NCBI GenBank assembly: GCA_902623075.1 | Contig: CACNSD010000001.1 | Location: 1-64,000, forward strand | DNA length: 64,000 nt | Reading direction: 5' to 3' | Source of the DNA: an uncultured Pelagibacteraceae bacterium | Lineage (GTDB): Bacteria; Pseudomonadota; Alphaproteobacteria; Pelagibacterales; Pelagibacteraceae | Shown here: in pieces, positions 5,026 to 44,082 of the stretch | How positions within the stretch are numbered: position 1 is the first letter of the stretch | How the letters are laid out: each line of letters starts with the position of its first letter | Notes under the pieces: model-generated | Told to the model about the DNA's origin: nothing | Seen by the model: only the letters and a program-made list of their open reading frames with translations | Database searches by the model: none | Position numbers and translations under genes: made by a program

Positions 5026-6627
5026 TTACAAGCTTCCAGGGGCTTTATCCTTAAATAACTTATAATCTAAACTGTCTACTAAAGCTTTGAATGAAGCGTC
5101 AATTATATTTGGTGATACACCAATAGTAAACCAATTAACACCTTTTGAATCTGTACTTTCAATACTCACTCTTGTAACAGCCTCTGTACCAGTGTTTAAA
5201 ATTCTAACTTTGTAATCTACAAGTCTTAAATCCTTTAAGTATTCAGAATACTTAGCTAATTTATTAACGTTCTTTCTAATTGCATTATCTAAAGCATTAA
5301 CTGGTCCATTACCTTGGCCTTCACATAAGATTTTATGTCCGTCTACCTCTAATTGGGCTTTTGCATACGAAACAATTTCTCCTGAATTATCTTTTTTTAC
5401 TGAAACGTCATATTCATTAATAGAAATATATCTTGGTATCTCACCCATTAATCTTCGCGCTAGTAGCTCAAAAGATGCATCAGCACCATCATAACTAAAA
5501 CCTATAAACTCTCTATCTTTAACTTCTTCCAAAAGCTTTTTAATTTTTGGATCACTCTTTTCAACTTTAATTCCTATTGAATTCAATCTGGACATAATAT
5601 TTGACTGACCTGATTGATCTGAAACTATAATATTTCTAGAATTTCCTACTTCCTCAGGGTTTATATGCTCATATGTTTTAGGGTTTTTTTGAACAGCAGA
5701 AACATGCATTCCACCTTTGTGAGAAAAAGCGGAGGCTCCAACATATGGTAAGTGCTTGTTAGGTTTTCTATTTAAGATCTCATCTAATAATCTTGAACAT
5801 TGAGTTAAATTTTTCAGTTTTTCTTTTTTGATATTAATTTCATAATTTTCATAAAAATCTTTTTTTAAAAAAAATGTTGGAATTAATGAAACTAAATTTG
5901 CATTACCACATCTTTCGCCCAAACCATTTAAAGTACCCTGTACTTGTCTGACACCTGCTTGAACGGCAATTAAACTATTTGCTACAGCATTTTCAGTATC
6001 ATTATGAGCGTGTATCCCTAAATTTTTACCTGGAATATGTTTTGAAACCTCTAAAACAATTTTTTCAATTTCATGAGGTAATGTTCCGCCATTTGTATCA
6101 CATAATACTATCCATCTTGCTCCATTGTCATATGCTTCTTTAATACAAGAAATTGCATATTCTGGATTAGCTTTATATCCGTCAAAAAAATGTTCTGCAT
6201 CGAACATAAATTCTTTACCTGATTTTACGATATGTTTTGCACTTTCACTTATATTTAAGAGATTTTGTTTATTTGTTATGCCAAGAGCTACCTCGACTTG
6301 AAAATCCCAAGATTTACCAAATAAACAAACAGATGAACTTTTTGAATTAATTATAGAGGATAACATTGGATCATTTTCTGCACTATGTTCAGATTTTTTA
6401 GTCATTCCGAACGCAGTTAATCTAGCTGATTTAAAGTCATGATCTTTGTTAAAAAATTCAGTATCAGTTGGATTTGCACCAGGCCATCCTCCTTCAATAT
6501 AATCAACACCTAAATTATCAAGTGATGCTGATATTTTTTCTTTATCATCTAATGAAAAGTCTACTCCTTGAGTTTGAGCTCCATCTCTTAATGTTGTATC
6601 AAATATATATAATCTATCTTTACTCAT
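5026..6627 (-). CDS. cimA: Citramalate synthase
   Basis: Member of the LeuA/homocitrate synthase (HMGL-like) family, most like the long CimA type (about 530 residues) that condenses pyruvate and acetyl-CoA to (R)-citramalate, opening a threonine-independent route to isoleucine. Seen are FDTTLRDGAQTQGVDFS at residues 9-25, metal-binding HAHND near residue 205, and a C-terminal LeuA allosteric domain (about 390-533) that would bind the feedback inhibitor isoleucine. Its start overlaps the cysS stop by 4 bp. 2-Isopropylmalate synthase is the main alternative, but YIEGGWPGANPTD is typical of CimA. Confidence 0.88.
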   Translation of the reverse strand: MSKDRLYIFDTTLRDGAQTQGVDFSLDDKEKISASLDNLGVDYIEGGWPGANPTDTEFFNKDHDFKSARLTAFGMTKKSEHSAENDPMLSSIINSKSSSVCLFGKSWDFQVEVALGITNKQNLLNISESAKHIVKSGKEFMFDAEHFFDGYKANPEYAISCIKEAYDNGARWIVLCDTNGGTLPHEIEKIVLEVSKHIPGKNLGIHAHNDTENAVANSLIAVQAGVRQVQGTLNGLGERCGNANLVSLIPTFFLKKDFYENYEINIKKEKLKNLTQCSRLLDEILNRKPNKHLPYVGASAFSHKGGMHVSAVQKNPKTYEHINPEEVGNSRNIIVSDQSGQSNIMSRLNSIGIKVEKSDPKIKKLLEEVKDREFIGFSYDGADASFELLARRLMGEIPRYISINEYDVSVKKDNSGEIVSYAKAQLEVDGHKILCEGQGNGPVNALDNAIRKNVNKLAKYSEYLKDLRLVDYKVRILNTGTEAVTRVSIESTDSKGVNWFTIGVSPNIIDASFKALVDSLDYKLFKDKAPGSL

Positions 6628-36005: not shown

Positions 36006-36395
36006 ATGAATAAAATTATAGTAGAAGTATCCGTAGGTGAGCTTTTAGACAAAATTTCAATATTAGAAATAAAAAAAGAGAAAATTAAAGATCCAGAAAA
36101 ACTAAAATTTATAACGAATGAATATTCGATTCTTAAAGATCAGTTAGAAAAAAATGTTAAACCTGACGATAAACTAAATAAACTATACCTTGATTTAAAA
36201 GAAATTAATGCCAAACTTTGGGTTATAGAGGACGACAAAAGAAATTGTGAAAAAAACAAAGACTTTAATGAAAAATTTATAAAATTATCTAGAGATGTTC
36301 ATTTTTTAAATGATGATCGCGCAAAAATAAAACTAGAAATGAATAATCATACTGGATCGAGTATTAGAGAAATTAAAGAATATACTAGCTACTAA
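36006..36395 (+). CDS. Small helical protein, DUF6165-like
   Basis: A 129-residue protein beginning IIVEVSVGELLDKISILEIKKEKI, with charged helical segments to the end (LKEINAKLWVIEDDKRNCE, RDVHFLNDDRAKIK). The pattern resembles DUF6165, small proteins often found beside glycosyltransferase genes, as here. Function unknown; the family name is from memory and tentative. The 3' end overlaps the convergent dioxygenase gene by 11 bp. Confidence 0.65.
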   Translation: MNKIIVEVSVGELLDKISILEIKKEKIKDPEKLKFITNEYSILKDQLEKNVKPDDKLNKLYLDLKEINAKLWVIEDDKRNCEKNKDFNEKFIKLSRDVHFLNDDRAKIKLEMNNHTGSSIREIKEYTSY

Positions 36396-37179
36396 AAACT
36401 TTAGGAAACCAATCATCTCTCATCAAATCTCCTGTTTTTAAATTAATACCATCAAATGGAGGAGAGGTTGGCCCTCCTCTATCAATATATTTTACATCAT
36501 CACCTATAAATCGCATCGAAAATGCTCTTCGTGATTTAGAGGAATTATTTCCTGTTGAACCATGTACAATTTTAAAATTAAATAAAACAGCATCACCCAA
36601 ACTTAATTCGGGAATTAAAATATTTTTTTCAAATTCTTTTGATGATGGTAAATCCATAAAAGAACTATTATCATCGTACCAAGATTGGTTATTAGACCAT
36701 TTCGTGGGTCTAATTAACTTGGGCCATTTGTGGGAACCTAAAATTAATTTAAGATTATTTTTTTGATTAACTTCATCCAAAGGAATCCAAAAACTTCCAG
36801 TATCGTTACCATCAACGCAATAATATGGCATATCTTGATGCCATGGTGTTTCTTTGTAAGTGCCGGGATCTTTTATAAAAACATGTTCATGAAAAATCTG
36901 GGTAGATTTAGATTTGGTTGCTTCAGCTACTATTTGAGCTCCAAGTGAATTATATATACAATCCTTAAATTCTTTTATCCTCTCCCAATTACAATAATCC
37001 TCAAAAAATCTTCCATTTTTATCAGTAACATTTTCTCTTCCATGCTTACTTGGATTTTCTAAAACTTTTTGAAATCCTGTTCTAAGTGGCTCAATCCAAT
37101 CTTTAAATAAATCTTTAATTATTATTACACCATCGTTTTGATAATCTTTAATTTGTCTATCAGATAAAAACATTTTCAT
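36385..37179 (-). CDS. Phytanoyl-CoA dioxygenase (PhyH) family protein
   Basis: Fe(II)/2-oxoglutarate-dependent dioxygenase of 264 residues. Metal-binding HxD is in ETPWHQDMPYY, the distal His in FKIVHGSTGNN, and the 2-oxoglutarate arginine in SRRAFSMRFIGDD. The substrate is unknown; relatives hydroxylate ectoine, amino acids, lipids or phosphonates. It is the last gene after two ABC permease genes and overlaps the second by 4 bp (ATGA), so its substrate may be a compound brought in by that transporter; this is inference. Confidence 0.87.
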   Translation of the reverse strand: MKMFLSDRQIKDYQNDGVIIIKDLFKDWIEPLRTGFQKVLENPSKHGRENVTDKNGRFFEDYCNWERIKEFKDCIYNSLGAQIVAEATKSKSTQIFHEHVFIKDPGTYKETPWHQDMPYYCVDGNDTGSFWIPLDEVNQKNNLKLILGSHKWPKLIRPTKWSNNQSWYDDNSSFMDLPSSKEFEKNILIPELSLGDAVLFNFKIVHGSTGNNSSKSRRAFSMRFIGDDVKYIDRGGPTSPPFDGINLKTGDLMRDDWFPKVFSS

Positions 37180-37853
37180 TGTTGAAAACTATACTTTTTC
37201 TCTAAATATTTAATCACGTTATGAATAATAAAAGTCATAAATAAATAAATTCCACCAGCAACTATAAATACTTCTATTGGTTTAAAAGTTGTTGAAATTA
37301 TATACTTTGCGACACCAGTTAAATCCATTAAAGTGACTGTACTTGCTAATGATGTTCCTTTCATCATTAATATTATTTCATTTCCATATGCTGGGAGTGA
37401 CTGTCGAATAGCGATTGGGATTTGGATTTTATAAAAAATTATTTTGTTTGATATTCCTAAGCTTTTTCCAGCTTCAATTATACCTGGTTTTATTGTTTGA
37501 AATGCTGATCTTAAAATTTCAGAAGTATATGCGCCAGTATTTAAAGTAAATGCTATTATTGCACACCAATAAGGTTCTTTTAAAATTACCCATAGAAATG
37601 TTGTTCTTAAATATTCGATTTGTCCTAATCCAAAATAAATTATGAAAATCTGGACCAATAATGGTGTTCCTCTAAAAATATATGAATAACCATAAGCAAG
37701 TTTATTAATAAATATATTTTTATTTAATCTTAAAATTGCAAAGAAAAGTCCTAGGAATAATCCAAAAAATAATGATGCAGATAATAGTTTTAATGTAACA
37801 ATCGTTGCTCCTAAAAGTTTAGGGAAACTAGTGATCATTAAATCAAAATCCAT
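37176..37853 (-). CDS. Polar amino-acid ABC transporter permease (HisM/ArtM type)
   Basis: A 225-residue inner-membrane permease with about five helices and the BPD_transp_1 EAA loop (GIIEAGKSLGISNKIIFYKIQIP). YSYIFRGTPLLVQIFIIYFGLG is the typical amino-acid permease N-terminal block. It pairs with the preceding permease (one-base overlap) as the heterodimeric channel for a polar amino-acid or opine importer. Substrate unknown. No ATPase gene accompanies it. Confidence 0.92.
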   Translation of the reverse strand: MDFDLMITSFPKLLGATIVTLKLLSASLFFGLFLGLFFAILRLNKNIFINKLAYGYSYIFRGTPLLVQIFIIYFGLGQIEYLRTTFLWVILKEPYWCAIIAFTLNTGAYTSEILRSAFQTIKPGIIEAGKSLGISNKIIFYKIQIPIAIRQSLPAYGNEIILMMKGTSLASTVTLMDLTGVAKYIISTTFKPIEVFIVAGGIYLFMTFIIHNVIKYLEKKYSFQQ

Positions 37854-38545
37854 TAATACCCCCTGCTATACCTAACTTCTAACTTGTTAATCAATTTCAT
37901 ACTCATGTAAGTAAGCAACAGATATAAAACTGCCGCAAAAGAATAAAAGAATAAAGGATCCCTTGTTGAACCAGCCGCAATGTATGATTGTCTCATTATT
38001 TCAACTAAACCCGTAACTGAAATTAAAGAGGTATCTTTTAAAGTTATTTGCCAAACATTGCTCAAATTTGGAATAGCTAGTCTTAACATTTGAGGTAGAA
38101 TTATTTTATAAAATTGGACAAATTTATTTACACCTAAAACCTTAGCAGCTTCAAACTGACCTTTGTCTATTGATTGTATTGCACCCCTAAAAACTTCAGT
38201 TGAATAGGCGCCTGAAATAATTCCAATTGCCATAGACCCTGTAATGAATGCATTGATTTCGATATACTCATAATAACCAAATATGGATGCTACATACATA
38301 ATTGCTCCACTTCCTCCAAAAAAGAATAGATAAATAACTAAAAGTTCAGGCACACCACGAATAACTGTCGTATAAAAATTTCCAACTAAATTTAAAGTTT
38401 TATATTTTGAAAGTTTTAATGGAGTAAAAATTAAAGCAAAAACAAAACCAACTAGCATTGCTGTTATAGAAACAGCAATTGTCATTAAGGTTGCGTAAAA
38501 TAACTCGTCACCCCAACCAGTTTTGCCAAATGCAAGAAGTTCCAT
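37853..38545 (-). CDS. Polar amino-acid ABC transporter permease (HisQ type)
   Basis: A 230-residue permease with about five helices, FYTTVIRGVPELLVIYLFFFGG near residue 55, and the EAA loop QFEAAKVLGVNKFVQFYKIILP. It is the partner of the next permease. Its start lies 44 bp after the binding-protein stop; a strong RNA hairpin (38552-38576) occupies that spacer, ending 6 bp before this ATG. The hairpin may lower permease translation relative to the binding protein. Confidence 0.92.
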   Translation of the reverse strand: MELLAFGKTGWGDELFYATLMTIAVSITAMLVGFVFALIFTPLKLSKYKTLNLVGNFYTTVIRGVPELLVIYLFFFGGSGAIMYVASIFGYYEYIEINAFITGSMAIGIISGAYSTEVFRGAIQSIDKGQFEAAKVLGVNKFVQFYKIILPQMLRLAIPNLSNVWQITLKDTSLISVTGLVEIMRQSYIAAGSTRDPLFFYSFAAVLYLLLTYMSMKLINKLEVRYSRGY

Positions 38546-38551
38546 ATAGAT

Positions 38552-38576
38552 TGGCGACTATATATTATAGTCGCCA
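38552..38576 (-). other. Intercistronic 11-bp hairpin between binding protein and permease genes
   Basis: Perfect inverted repeat: TGGCGACTATA (38552-38562) and TATAGTCGCCA (38566-38576), three-base loop. It falls between the stop of the binding-protein gene and the start of the permease. There is no T tract after it on the minus strand, so it is probably not a terminator. It more likely shields the 3' end of the binding-protein message or hinders ribosome access to the permease. Confidence 0.75.
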
Positions 38577-38589
38577 GATCTGAAATGAA

Positions 38590-39441
38590 TTACATAGAAG
38601 CGTCGAAACCAAAGTGCTTAATAGCAAGTTTGCTAATAATTCCTTGTTTTCTAGCTTTGTTAATTGCTTTGTTGAAGTCTTTTAAGATTTTGGCATCTCT
38701 TTTTCCAATCGCACTGTCGCTAGCTTGTCTGATACCAACACCTACACCATTACCAAATGCACCACCTGAAAAAGTTGGTCCAACTAATACAACTGGTTTA
38801 CCTGATTTATCTGCATAATCTGTAAATGCCACTGCTGCAGCTAAAGCAACATCACATCTTCCAGAAGTTAGATCAAGGTTAACTTCATCTTGAGTTTTAT
38901 AAGTTCTAACATTTACACTTCCTACATCACCTGACTCTAAAAAGTTTTGGTGAATTGTTCCTGTTTGAGTACAAACAGTTTTGCCAGCAAGTGCTCCTGT
39001 TAATGTCTTCAGAGCTTTTTTAACATCAGATCCACCTAATGATAAATTAATACCTTCTGGTGTATCCATGCCCTCTAAGCTTGAGCCTTTCATTACTGCA
39101 AGAGAAGCTACTTCATCAGCATAACCTTGCGAAAAAGTAATTGTTTTTTGTCTTTCAGCAGTGATAGACATTCCAGCCATAATCGCATCAAATTTTCTCA
39201 TTACTAGAGCTGGTATCATTCCATCCCAATCTTGCTCTACAATAGTACACTCATATTTCATGATCGTACAAAGTTCTTGAGCAAGCTCGACCTCAAAACC
39301 AATAAGATTACCTGATGCATCTTTTGAATTCCATGGAGGGTAAGCGCCTTCAGTTCCAATTTTTATTTTTTCAGCAGAAACATTTCCAATGATAAATAAA
39401 GAAGCAAGAACTGTTAAAATAGTTTTTTTGAATATATTCAT
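38590..39441 (-). CDS. Periplasmic polar amino-acid-binding protein
   Basis: Solute-binding protein family 3 of 283 residues. A signal peptide (MKKTIL-type core, MNIFKKTILTVLASLFIIGNVSA, about 1-23) is followed by KIGTEGAYPPWNSKDASGNLIGFEVELAQEL, then WDGMIPALVMRKFDAIMAGMSITAERQKTI, the classic lysine/arginine/ornithine-histidine-binding style. A strong AAAGGAG Shine-Dalgarno sits 6 bases before the ATG, unlike most genes here. It follows the SpeD-SpeE gene by 59 bp, so basic amino acids or polyamine precursors are possible ligands; the ligand is not shown. Confidence 0.92.
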   Translation of the reverse strand: MNIFKKTILTVLASLFIIGNVSAEKIKIGTEGAYPPWNSKDASGNLIGFEVELAQELCTIMKYECTIVEQDWDGMIPALVMRKFDAIMAGMSITAERQKTITFSQGYADEVASLAVMKGSSLEGMDTPEGINLSLGGSDVKKALKTLTGALAGKTVCTQTGTIHQNFLESGDVGSVNVRTYKTQDEVNLDLTSGRCDVALAAAVAFTDYADKSGKPVVLVGPTFSGGAFGNGVGVGIRQASDSAIGKRDAKILKDFNKAINKARKQGIISKLAIKHFGFDASM

Positions 39442-39500: not shown

Positions 39501-40541
39501 TTAATGATTTATTGAGGAAGAAAAATTCCAAGAACAATCAAAACTAGGTATATAAACTCTTGATAATTTTGCATTTCCAAAATTTTGATTGAAAACATTC
39601 AGCCAATTTTCAACCTGTTGTGGTTTTTTATCCTGACTACCGACTTGAGCTGTGATAACTCCTTTTGGTTTTAAAATTCTCACTAATGAATCCATGTTTT
39701 TAGCTGCTAAATCTATACAAAATGGGTCATCATTAAGATCAACAAATATATGATCGTAAGTATCATCACCTGCTGATTTAATACTTTCAAATGCATCACC
39801 CCATACACATTTAACAGAATTTTTTTCTGTTGCCTTCTTGCCTATATCTCCAAGATGTTTGTTGCAAACATCTACTACTTCAGGATCTAGTTCATACCAA
39901 TCTATAAAGTTAAAATTTTTGGAAATGCATTCTCTTGCAACTCCACCATCTCCACCACCAATAATTGCAGCTCTTTCATTTTCTTTACTTAAATTTAATC
40001 CAGAACCAACAAAGGTTGAGCTATATAAATGTTCATCTGTTGAAGCTACTTGTATTTCACCATCAATAAATAAAGACTTTCCAAACTGCTCTAAATCTAA
40101 AATTTCTATGTGTTGACCTATTTTAGATTTAAAATCTTCTAAAACATCATTAACAACGTATGATTTTTGTAAGCCCGGCGAACTATAAATATCGTGATAA
40201 AGAGATTTATTGTCTCTATTAAATTCTTTTTTGACTATTCTTTTATGTTCAAATTCTTTTTTTATAATATCTATCGCCACAGATGGGTTTACTTTTCCAC
40301 ACGTAAAGAAATCGAAACTTATAATTCCTTTTTCTGGAAAGGTATGAAAACTAATGTGACTCTCGGCTAATAAAGCAAGAATTGTAAAACCCTGAGGTTC
40401 AAATTTATATTTTGAAATATTTAAAATTGTTACTTTTGCAGCTTTTGCAATATCGTTAATTACTTTTTCAAATTTTGAAGGATCGTATTCTTTTGTTGTA
40501 CCAATAATGTCTAGAGTTATGTGTTCTCCAACTTTAGTCAT
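39501..40541 (-). CDS. speE: SpeD-SpeE fusion: S-adenosylmethionine decarboxylase / spermidine synthase
   Basis: A 346-residue natural fusion. Residues 1-~125 are a bacterial AdoMet decarboxylase: ESHISFHTFPE at 60-70, with Ser61 as the self-cleavage residue that becomes pyruvoyl, His66 and Cys81 conserved. Residues ~130-346 are an aminopropyltransferase: FIDGEIQVASTDEHLYSS, GGGDGGVAREC at 195-205, VDLNDDPF. The protein would decarboxylate AdoMet and pass the aminopropyl group to putrescine, giving spermidine and methylthioadenosine. It is the last of five closely packed genes whose other members salvage methylthioadenosine. No ODC or agmatinase gene is in the window. Confidence 0.93.
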   Translation of the reverse strand: MTKVGEHITLDIIGTTKEYDPSKFEKVINDIAKAAKVTILNISKYKFEPQGFTILALLAESHISFHTFPEKGIISFDFFTCGKVNPSVAIDIIKKEFEHKRIVKKEFNRDNKSLYHDIYSSPGLQKSYVVNDVLEDFKSKIGQHIEILDLEQFGKSLFIDGEIQVASTDEHLYSSTFVGSGLNLSKENERAAIIGGGDGGVARECISKNFNFIDWYELDPEVVDVCNKHLGDIGKKATEKNSVKCVWGDAFESIKSAGDDTYDHIFVDLNDDPFCIDLAAKNMDSLVRILKPKGVITAQVGSQDKKPQQVENWLNVFNQNFGNAKLSRVYIPSFDCSWNFSSSINH

Positions 40542-40544
40542 TAG

Positions 40545-41177
40545 TTATCCTCTTTTATAATTTTTTGCTTTGGATAAAACTTTTTTCATTTCTTTAATTG
40601 AAAGAATCTTTGGCTTACCCAATTTATGGCTCGTTATATACTGAAGCGATATATTTTCAACCTCTTCAGCAAGTTCAAATGCTTTTGACAAATTTTCCTC
40701 AAATGCAATCTGTCCGTGATTTGCAATTAAACACGCTTTTCGACCCTTTAAAGCTTTCAAAATATTTTTTGACAACTCTCTTGTTCCAAATGTTGCGTAT
40801 TTTGCACATTTGATGTCATGGCCTCCAGCCATCGCTACCATATAATGAAAAGGTGGTATTCCTCTCTTGTGAGTAGAAACTGCTGTTGCACACGTTGAAT
40901 GTGCATGAACAATTGCTTTTGCTTCTTTTTTGTTTCTATAGATATCTTGATGAAACTTCCACTCAGATGATGGAATTCCTTTTTTTTTATCAAAATATCC
41001 ATCTAGGGAAACAAAAACTATATCATTATTTTTTAATACTGAATATTTTTTTCCTGAAGGAGTAATTAAAAAACCATCTTTGTGCCTTGATGAAATGTTC
41101 CCAGATCTTAATGCTGATAACTTTTTTGAATTCAGCATTTTTGAATATTTTATTATTTCAGATCTTAAATTTTTCAT
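40545..41177 (-). CDS. Class II aldolase (FucA/Ald2-like), candidate methylthioribulose-1-phosphate aldolase
   Basis: A 210-residue class II aldolase/adducin protein. GNISSRHKDGFLITPSG gives the phosphate site, PSSEWKFHQDIY the catalytic Glu, and zinc ligands appear in VHAHST and NHGQIAF; EEVENISLQY follows. The SSEW and NHG context is that of FucA-type aldolases, not MtnB dehydratase. Located 4 bp overlapping mtnA and 3 bp before speDE, it probably splits 5-methylthioribulose 1-phosphate to DHAP and methylthioacetaldehyde, as Ald2 does in Rhodospirillum. MtnB (dehydratase) is the alternative; no mtnC or mtnD is present here. Confidence 0.78.
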   Translation of the reverse strand: MKNLRSEIIKYSKMLNSKKLSALRSGNISSRHKDGFLITPSGKKYSVLKNNDIVFVSLDGYFDKKKGIPSSEWKFHQDIYRNKKEAKAIVHAHSTCATAVSTHKRGIPPFHYMVAMAGGHDIKCAKYATFGTRELSKNILKALKGRKACLIANHGQIAFEENLSKAFELAEEVENISLQYITSHKLGKPKILSIKEMKKVLSKAKNYKRG

Positions 41178-42244
41178 TTAAACAATTTATTTAAACTATC
41201 AAAAGAAGGTTCGGTAATCCCTCTTTCAGTAATTAAGCCTGTAACATATTTTGCAGGCGTAACATCAAATGCTAAGTTCATTACTTTACTTTTATTTGGG
41301 TATATCAAAACTTTCTTAAGTTGGTTATTCTCATCAACACCCTCAATATGAGATAATTCCTCTGAATTTCTTTCTTCAATAGGTATATCTTTTGCATCTT
41401 TAATATCCCAATCAATTGTTGAGCTTGGAAGAGCAACATAAAAAGGAACATTGTTATCATGAGCAGCTAATGCTTTAAGATAAGTTCCAATTTTATTACA
41501 AACATCTCCATTAGATAAAGTTCTATCAGTTCCAACAATACACATATCAACCTCCCCTCTTTGCATTAAAATTCCACCAGTGTTATCAGCAATTATAGTG
41601 TTTGGAACTTCTTCCTCATTTAATTCATATGAAGTTAAATTTGCACCTTGGTTTCTTGGTCTTGTTTCGTCTACCCACACATGAACTGGAATTCCTTTTT
41701 TATGAGCATGGTAAATTGGCGATGTTGCCGTACCCCAATTAATAGTTGCTAACCAGCCAGCATTACAATGTGTTAATATGTTTACTGTATCTTTCTTTTT
41801 ATTATAAATCTCTTCAATTACTTTTAATCCATTAATACCAATATTTTCACAAAACTTTTCATCTTCATCACATATTTTTTTTGCCTCATTTAAAGCTATA
41901 CTTAATAGTTGATCACTGTTAATTCCTGTTAACTTTTTTATCACTCGGTCTACAGCCCACTTTAGATTAATAGCAGTAGGTCTTGATTGAACTAATTCTG
42001 TTGCACTTTTTTTTATAAATTGTGGATCATTATTTTCTTGAACAGCCAAAGCTAGACCATATGCAGCTGTTCCACCAATTAGAGGTGCGCCCCTTACTTC
42101 CATTACTTTAATTGCATTAATTGCATCTTTTACTGTCTTTAGTTCTTTAATTATAAATTGATGTGGAAGTTTTGTTTGATCAATTATTTTAACAATATTG
42201 TTTTCAAACCAAATTGTACGATATTCTTTTCCTTCTATTTTCAT
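41174..42244 (-). CDS. mtnA: Methylthioribose-1-phosphate isomerase
   Basis: eIF2B-alpha-like isomerase of 356 residues converting 5-methylthioribose 1-phosphate to 5-methylthioribulose 1-phosphate. Signatures are VRGAPLIGGTAAYGLALA, the active-site cysteine in LTHCNAGWLATINWGTA, VDETRPRNQGANLTSYEL and CIVGTDRTLSNGDVCNKIGTY with the catalytic Asp. Related ribose-1,5-bisphosphate isomerases differ in these loops. It lies between the GFA-like gene (1 bp gap) and the aldolase gene (4-bp overlap) in the mtn-spe operon. Confidence 0.95.
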   Translation of the reverse strand: MKIEGKEYRTIWFENNIVKIIDQTKLPHQFIIKELKTVKDAINAIKVMEVRGAPLIGGTAAYGLALAVQENNDPQFIKKSATELVQSRPTAINLKWAVDRVIKKLTGINSDQLLSIALNEAKKICDEDEKFCENIGINGLKVIEEIYNKKKDTVNILTHCNAGWLATINWGTATSPIYHAHKKGIPVHVWVDETRPRNQGANLTSYELNEEEVPNTIIADNTGGILMQRGEVDMCIVGTDRTLSNGDVCNKIGTYLKALAAHDNNVPFYVALPSSTIDWDIKDAKDIPIEERNSEELSHIEGVDENNQLKKVLIYPNKSKVMNLAFDVTPAKYVTGLITERGITEPSFDSLNKLFK

Positions 42245-42245
42245 T

Positions 42246-42644
42246 TTAACTATATCTGTTAAATTTTGGCAGAGATTTATCTATCTTATAATATTTCAAT
42301 CTATTCTTTATAAAAATATTTCTTGTAGTTTTTACCTTAAGTGATTTATCAAACATTCCAGCAGAAATTGAGATATTTTTTGATTTATTAAATTTAAAAA
42401 AAATACTTGCTCCACATTTTGAGCAAAAACCTCTTTTTGCTCTTTTTGAGGATTTAAACCATTTTAAAGTTTTTTTATTTTGAAATTTTAAATTCTTATC
42501 TTCAATATTGGTGTATGCAGCAAAATTACCATGAGTTTTCATGCATTGAATACAATGACAGCTTGATACATCTCTATGAAAACCTTTTGTTGAAAATTCT
42601 ACTCCACCACATAGACATTTTCCTCTAGAAGAAAATTTTTTCAT
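42246..42644 (-). CDS. GFA/CENP-V family zinc protein
   Basis: A 132-residue protein with the glutathione-dependent formaldehyde-activating (GFA) zinc signature: GKCLCGGVEF, SCHCIQCMKTHG and GFCSKCGASIFF. The family binds two zinc ions; assigned enzymatic roles are doubtful. Its 4-bp overlap with mtnP and 1-bp gap to mtnA place it inside the MTA-salvage operon. It could deal with an aldehyde or thiol adduct made by the aldolase step, but that is speculation. Confidence 0.85.
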   Translation of the reverse strand: MKKFSSRGKCLCGGVEFSTKGFHRDVSSCHCIQCMKTHGNFAAYTNIEDKNLKFQNKKTLKWFKSSKRAKRGFCSKCGASIFFKFNKSKNISISAGMFDKSLKVKTTRNIFIKNRLKYYKIDKSLPKFNRYS

Positions 42645-43513
42645 TTATTTAAAACTCTACCTGCTATAGTTTTTAATTTATCTGTTGTCTTTTTTGTTCT
42701 TTTTTCTGGAGCAGTAATAATTGCTACATCTAAACAATTGTTTGTTGGGTCATTCGGGTCAATATGATCTTCAAAATTATCAATTAAATTTTTAATCATA
42801 ACTTTTGCTTTTTCAGCATTACCTAATAAAACTTTGATTACTTGTTGAACATCAACATTTTCGTGATCCGGATGCCAACAATCAAAATCAGTTACCATTG
42901 AAACAGATGCATATCTAATTTCAGCCTCTCTTGCTAATTTTGCCTCAGGCATATTTGTCATTCCAATTACATCTGCTTTCCAAGATCTATATAAATTAGA
43001 CTCTGCTAAAGTAGAAAATTGAGGCCCTTCCATAACTACATATGTTCCATTTCTTTGATAGTCTATGTTTGATTTTTTAATTGCTTCTTCGCATGCATTC
43101 ATCAATCCATTTGACGTTGGATGCGCCATTGATACATGAGCTACTATCTCATCGTCAAAAAAAGTTTTATTTCTTGCAAAAGTCCTATCTATAAATTGAT
43201 CTACAATTACAAATTTTCCAGGAGGTAAATTTTCTTTAAGAGAACCAACAGCCGACACAGAAACAATATCTGTTACCCCTAACTGTTTAAGTGCATCTAT
43301 ATTTGCTCTAAAATTTATATTTGAAGGAGAAACAAAATGCCCTCTTCCGTGTCTTGGTAAAAAATAAACTTCCTTACTACTATATTTAGTTTTTAAAATC
43401 TGATCAGAAGGTTTTCCCCAGGGTGTTTGTAAATCAAGCAATTCTCTATCATTGAATTCCTCAACATCATAAAGGCCACTTCCACCAATTATTGCTAATT
43501 TATTTGTTGTCAT
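42641..43513 (-). CDS. mtnP: S-methyl-5'-thioadenosine phosphorylase
   Basis: Purine nucleoside phosphorylase family, MTAP type, 290 residues: IIGGSGLYDVEEF, FLPRHGRGHFVSPSNINFRANI, VSAVGSLKENLPPG, VVMEGPQFSTLAESNLYRSWKADVIGMTNMPEAKLAREAEI split across two blocks, and VTDFDCWH. Splits MTA into adenine and methylthioribose 1-phosphate. First gene of the mtnP-gfa-mtnA-aldolase-speDE operon; its ATG is only 41 bp from the divergent apt ATG, whose enzyme would recycle the adenine. Confidence 0.95.
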   Translation of the reverse strand: MTTNKLAIIGGSGLYDVEEFNDRELLDLQTPWGKPSDQILKTKYSSKEVYFLPRHGRGHFVSPSNINFRANIDALKQLGVTDIVSVSAVGSLKENLPPGKFVIVDQFIDRTFARNKTFFDDEIVAHVSMAHPTSNGLMNACEEAIKKSNIDYQRNGTYVVMEGPQFSTLAESNLYRSWKADVIGMTNMPEAKLAREAEIRYASVSMVTDFDCWHPDHENVDVQQVIKVLLGNAEKAKVMIKNLIDNFEDHIDPNDPTNNCLDVAIITAPEKRTKKTTDKLKTIAGRVLNK

Positions 43514-43554
43514 ACTTAAAAAATTATTTATTTATACTTTTATATTTAACTATT

Positions 43555-44082
43555 ATGAACTTAAAAAATTATATTAGATCTATTCCAGATTATCCAAAAA
43601 AAGGCATTTTATTTAGAGATATAACTACTTTGATCAAAGATGAAAATGCATTTGAAGAAACAATTAATCAGATTATTGAAAGATCAAAAAAATACAATTT
43701 TACAAAAATAGCAGCAATAGAGTCTAGAGGTTTTGTTTTTGCATCTGCTGTTTCCTATATTTTAAAGAAACCATTTATAATGCTTAGAAAAAAAAATAAA
43801 TTACCTGCAGAAGTTCACTCTGTAGATTTTGAGCTAGAGTATGGAACAGCTACAATAGAAGTGCACAAAGACTCAATAAATGAAGAGGATAAGGTATTAA
43901 TTATTGATGATCTAATTGCTACGGGAGGAACAGCAGAGGCTGCTGCAAAACTAGTTGAAATATCTAAAGGAAAAGTTGAAGCTTTCATATTTGTTATTAA
44001 CTTATTCGATCTAGGAGGTACTGATAATTTAATTAAAAAAAATTTTAATGTAGAAAATCTAATAGATTTTTCTGGTCACTGA
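43555..44082 (+). CDS. apt: Adenine phosphoribosyltransferase
   Basis: Forms AMP from adenine and PRPP. I place the start at the ATG at 43555 (175 residues), where MNLKNYIRSIPDYPKKGILFRDITTL begins, because this matches the family N-terminus; the longer open frame upstream is hydrophobic and overlaps mtnP. IAAIESRGFVFAS and the PRPP loop VLIIDDLIATGGTAEAA are present. Adenine from MtnP is the likely substrate. A TATACT -10-like element at 43533-43538 lies in the short divergent spacer. Confidence 0.94.
   Translation: MNLKNYIRSIPDYPKKGILFRDITTLIKDENAFEETINQIIERSKKYNFTKIAAIESRGFVFASAVSYILKKPFIMLRKKNKLPAEVHSVDFELEYGTATIEVHKDSINEEDKVLIIDDLIATGGTAEAAAKLVEISKGKVEAFIFVINLFDLGGTDNLIKKNFNVENLIDFSGH

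Follow-up and report, generated by a model that had tools for sequence, protein, structure and literature searches.

A predicted self-cleaving, probably spermidine-making AdoMet decarboxylase-aminopropyltransferase fusion of the known Pelagibacter type, encoded beside putative methylthioadenosine-recycling genes

Analysis of the window, that is, the whole 64,000-nucleotide stretch of Pelagibacterales DNA, indicated that the gene at 39501-40541 very probably encodes the Pelagibacter fusion of AdoMet decarboxylase (AdoMetDC, SpeD) and aminopropyltransferase (APT, SpeE), a protein predicted to cleave itself and to make spermidine, with its by-product recycled by the neighboring operon. The fusion frame is real and intact and is the ordinary form for SAR11 ocean bacteria; both the SAR11 fusion and its activities are already known from published work, and nothing here is new in kind. 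The gene runs from ATG start to stop as a single frame and is present in one copy in the genome, with the two enzymes in one uninterrupted chain, AdoMetDC first and APT second. The first-pass annotation had given the 346-residue length correctly, but not the strand, which is minus; the plus strand across the same interval is riddled with stops. A second SpeE start inside the fusion frame was considered and rejected: codons 101-130, which span the junction region, contain no in-frame ATG, GTG or TTG, making a separate start at the junction unlikely. The features of the gene are as follows.

39501..40541, minus strand: speD-speE fusion gene, 346 aa (frame, Pfam matches, single copy)
40215..40523, minus strand: class 1b AdoMet decarboxylase domain, residues 7-109 (PF02675; TIGR03330 above cut-off)
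40359..40361, minus strand: Ser61 codon, predicted self-cleavage site and pyruvoyl source (motif position; invariant in 105 distinct fusions)
40047..40187, minus strand: SpeE N-terminal (tetramerisation) domain, residues 119-165 (PF17284)
39522..40034, minus strand: aminopropyltransferase catalytic domain, residues 170-340, with GGGDGG at 195-200 and D268/D271 (PF01564; conservation)

The decarboxylase half matched the Pfam AdoMet_dc family above its curated cut-off (E=1.1e-28) and passed the AdoMetDC equivalog model TIGR03330 (97.6 bits versus a cut-off of 75.65), and residues 7-109 agree with the family model of class 1b SpeD, a small domain of about 110-130 aa. The motif ESHISFH begins at Glu60, placing the pyruvoyl serine at Ser61. 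Cleavage at this serine with release of a beta chain of about 7 kDa had been predicted beforehand, and the sequence agrees with this, the predicted products being a beta chain of 60 aa (6.7 kDa) and a remainder of 286 aa (32.2 kDa), which would carry the pyruvoyl group together with the transferase. S61, H66 and C81 are the equivalents of Thermotoga maritima S63, H68 and C83, the catalytic roles of which have been described (PMC10407285), and are invariant among the 105 distinct fusions.

In the transferase half, both SpeE domains scored above their curated Pfam cut-offs (Spermine_synt_N, E=1.1e-6; Spermine_synth, E=4.3e-25), the GGGDGG motif starts at residue 195, and D268 and D271 do not vary. 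The NCBIfam SpeE equivalog cut-offs were missed (PRK00811, 121.5 of 260 bits; TIGR00417, 96.4 of 249.55 bits). Judged by its domains and residues, the SpeE half is an APT, though an atypical one for a dedicated spermidine synthase, and across the whole chain the residues are those expected of a functional class 1b decarboxylase and a functional aminopropyltransferase. Alignments to solved spermidine synthases of 275-283 residues end at residue 229-231 of the latter, with 5-9 residues of the window protein remaining, indicating that some 40-45 C-terminal residues are missing from the SpeE half of the fusion. The catalytic loop is altered as well, with DLNDD replacing the usual DSTDP and YSS replacing YHE; the short C-terminus and the two loop aspartates are common to the relatives in our alignments. 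Asp198, Gly200 and Glu217, invariant across the 20-member alignment, appear to fit the spermine-synthase residue pattern given in PMC11107197, the assignment of Glu217 as motif 3 being our own reading. The short C-terminus and odd catalytic loop are less discussed, yet do not amount to a new kind of system. We regard it as a rather doubtful idea that they mark an altered active site taking several amine acceptors and perhaps working reversibly, so as to serve polyamine breakdown too; a SAR11 SpeE running backwards has been proposed (PMC8437039).

An AlphaFold model built from the alignment of 20 relatives reached a mean pLDDT of 87.7 and a pTM of 0.67. Its top PDB matches were human spermine synthase chains, which aligned over the full length (E about 1e-24) with an rmsd of about 9 Å, the two domains being positioned differently or uncertainly; single-domain spermidine synthases fit its transferase half at 2-3 Å. 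A fusion that exists mainly to channel decarboxylated AdoMet between active sites would account for two consecutive steps residing in one chain and being retained throughout the family, but this is speculation and we consider it improbable: nothing found points to a tunnel or to kinetic coupling, the domain placement in the model is uncertain, and the retention is accounted for equally well if the halves support each other structurally or are just expressed together. Animal spermine synthase has been traced to a bacterial AdoMetDC-SpmSyn fusion, and in the human enzyme the inactive decarboxylase-like half is retained because dimer formation requires it (PMC12803844). This dimer role is a structural reason for joining the domains, and channeling is therefore not needed.

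As we picture the preferred reading, a self-cleaving, spermidine-making fusion, the proenzyme would cut itself before Ser61, converting this serine into the pyruvoyl cofactor for AdoMet decarboxylation. With decarboxylated AdoMet as aminopropyl donor, the transferase in the same chain would then make spermidine from putrescine, and probably also spermine and thermospermine from spermidine. Released methylthioadenosine (MTA) would be recycled by MtnP, MtnA and, putatively, the operon aldolase, and Apt, encoded next door, would take the adenine. The genome also carries two ornithine/arginine decarboxylase-family genes, suggesting that it has the putrescine side; one of them adjoins a deoxyhypusine-synthase-family gene, and a Pelagibacter cluster with such a pair has been published (PMC9992855).

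That both activities exist, as the first-pass annotation had supposed, is borne out in close relatives. When expressed in E. coli, the fusions of Ca. Pelagibacter ubique HTCC1062 and of Ca. Pelagibacter sp. HTCC7211 gave spermidine in cells lacking speD, an effect of the decarboxylase half, and spermine/thermospermine in cells lacking speE; spermidine, spermine and thermospermine are all products of the transferase half, norspermidine is made from diaminopropane, and these relatives, termed divergent APTs, are active (PMC11107197). In the same line, SAR11 SpeE has been described as multidomain via gene fusion and broad in substrate range, with reference to Green et al. 2011 (PMC8437039, mBio). 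Substrate switches are known among SpeD homologues, one of them from a pelagiphage (PMC9992855; PMC10407285), but a comparable switch of the present decarboxylase half to arginine or ornithine is very unlikely, given that the partner transferase in the same chain requires decarboxylated AdoMet, that the AdoMetDC equivalog model scored above its cut-off and that the related fusions rescue spermidine synthesis in cells without speD (PMC11107197).

We surveyed 297 genomes of the order. Matches were present in 218, comprising 215 to the fusion (a few as contig-end pieces) and three that were weak, distant and SpeD-like. From two overlapping genome collections we gathered 125 full-length fusions, 105 of them distinct (the window protein included), with identity down to 59%; every full-length copy found within the order belongs to the window's own family. 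S61, H66, C81, D198, D268 and D271 are invariant across the 105, as are Y173, GGGD, Q299 and C336, and all of these proteins terminate at most three residues from the end of the alignment. The natural fusion originally claimed is thereby confirmed; it is conserved and keeps the catalytic residues of both enzymes, and the suggested search of other Pelagibacterales found it widely. The description of such fusions as uncommon does not hold for this organism, where the fusion is the standard form of its Pelagibacterales family and has already been cloned and assayed. Their occurrence in scattered phyla stands, with examples from a delta-proteobacterium and Ca. Krumholzibacteria (PMC12803844). That the two halves were joined erroneously during sequencing or assembly, or that their frames merged by chance in a single cell, is next to impossible, as the same frame recurs in many independently assembled genomes, complete single-contig ones included, and the artefact that would have undone the original claim is excluded by this comparison.

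Partial matches in five genomes (G118, G132, G145, G237, G267) were rejected as natural un-fusions, as they sit at contig ends; in G265, the frame breaks within one contig, through either a real mutation or an error. G027, G077 and G089, three genomes of the order that belong to a different family, were likewise rejected as fusion carriers, having only the distant SpeD-like matches; the frames in G027 and G077 are about 130 aa long, and that of G027, when scanned, contained the AdoMet_dc domain alone. None of the 11 viral-contig stretches that matched a pattern encodes a relative that would represent a phage-borne copy, in a scan that reaches close relatives only.

Elsewhere in the class, SpeD and SpeE occupy separate frames in many genomes, often adjacent ones (for example, G358:C45:4855-5181 and 5192-5680), an arrangement that fits fusion by merger of neighbors. 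In at least one different alphaproteobacterial family, a longer AdoMetDC-APT fusion frame of 465 aa (L146:1234-2631) retains the whole SpeE C-terminus; it shares about 28% identity with the window protein and possibly arose independently. Green et al. 2011 reportedly describe further bacterial AdoMetDC-APT fusions, under a title said to claim independent fusion origins.

Upstream of the fusion, four co-directional genes follow one another with gaps of -4 to +3 nt, and apt lies beyond them.

40545..41177, minus strand: class II aldolase, 210 aa (PF00596; closest NCBIfam models FucA-type, below cut-off)
41174..42244, minus strand: mtnA, S-methyl-5-thioribose-1-phosphate isomerase (TIGR00512 above cut-off)
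42246-42644, minus strand: GFA-domain gene between mtnP and mtnA (4-nt and 1-nt junctions)
42641..43513, minus strand: mtnP, S-methyl-5'-thioadenosine phosphorylase (TIGR01694 and PRK08931 above cut-off)
43492..44082, plus strand: apt, adenine phosphoribosyltransferase, divergent from mtnP (TIGR01090 above cut-off)

The true start of apt probably lies further in, the listed frame overlapping mtnP. As annotated, the operon at 40545-44082 would fit recycling of MTA, the transferase by-product, with the aldolase probably acting on methylthioribulose phosphate, a substrate suggested by context. Rhodospirillum Ald2 represents an aldolase route of MTA salvage. By analogy, salvage here would probably run along a similar route (Ald2 is mentioned in PMC6302742), and the operon would imply aldolase-type methylthioribulose phosphate salvage in SAR11; a literature search for a paper on this topic found none. 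The GFA-domain gene had no homologue in 80 related loci of 7 to 13 kb and therefore looks strain-specific.

The commonest gene order in relatives is mtnP-mtnA-aldolase-speDE-ABC transporter. MTAP and the fusion co-occur across the 297 genomes (193 with both, 76 with neither, 22 with the fusion only and six with MTAP only, as raw counts uncorrected for kinship or missing DNA). Four loci (L112, L113, L118 and L120, from genomes G011, G174, G032 and G158) lack the mtnP-mtnA-aldolase block and have apt immediately next to speDE; three single-contig genomes (G011, G158, G026) contain the fusion and no MTAP match. Cells with the fusion and no MTA block may export or otherwise handle MTA. At L044:1351-5936, and similarly at L048 and L060, the place of the aldolase between mtnA and speDE is taken by an opposite-strand block, whose products are a class II aldolase-short-chain dehydrogenase protein of 684 aa, a PALP-fold enzyme and a protein with DUF1015. 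Downstream of the fusion, genes for an amino-acid-type ABC transporter (binding protein and two permeases) and a PhyH-family oxygenase occupy 36385-39441 on the minus strand, in an order retained in many relatives.

Since published work already covers both the fusion and what it does, the finding alone means little; SAR11 cells import as well as synthesize polyamines, and the remaining value is ecological. The neighboring MTA-recycling genes, present in most lineages and missing in some, allow streamlined cells to be compared in nature for their handling of the sulfur by-product of polyamine synthesis.

Among known systems, the closest are the HTCC1062 (WP_011282223) and HTCC7211 (WP_008544956) proteins, which come from the same order and share the domain order, with a functional class 1b AdoMetDC and APT in one chain (PMC11107197); the window protein is from another strain and is likened to them at the level of domain architecture. 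The delta-proteobacterial and Ca. Krumholzibacteria fusions have the same architecture and both activities, but belong to separate lineages (PMC12803844). Human spermine synthase (PDB 3c6k), the best whole-chain fold match, likewise places an AdoMetDC-like N-terminal domain before the APT; however, this domain has lost its decarboxylase function (PMC12803844), whereas the SAR11 one retains the catalytic residues.
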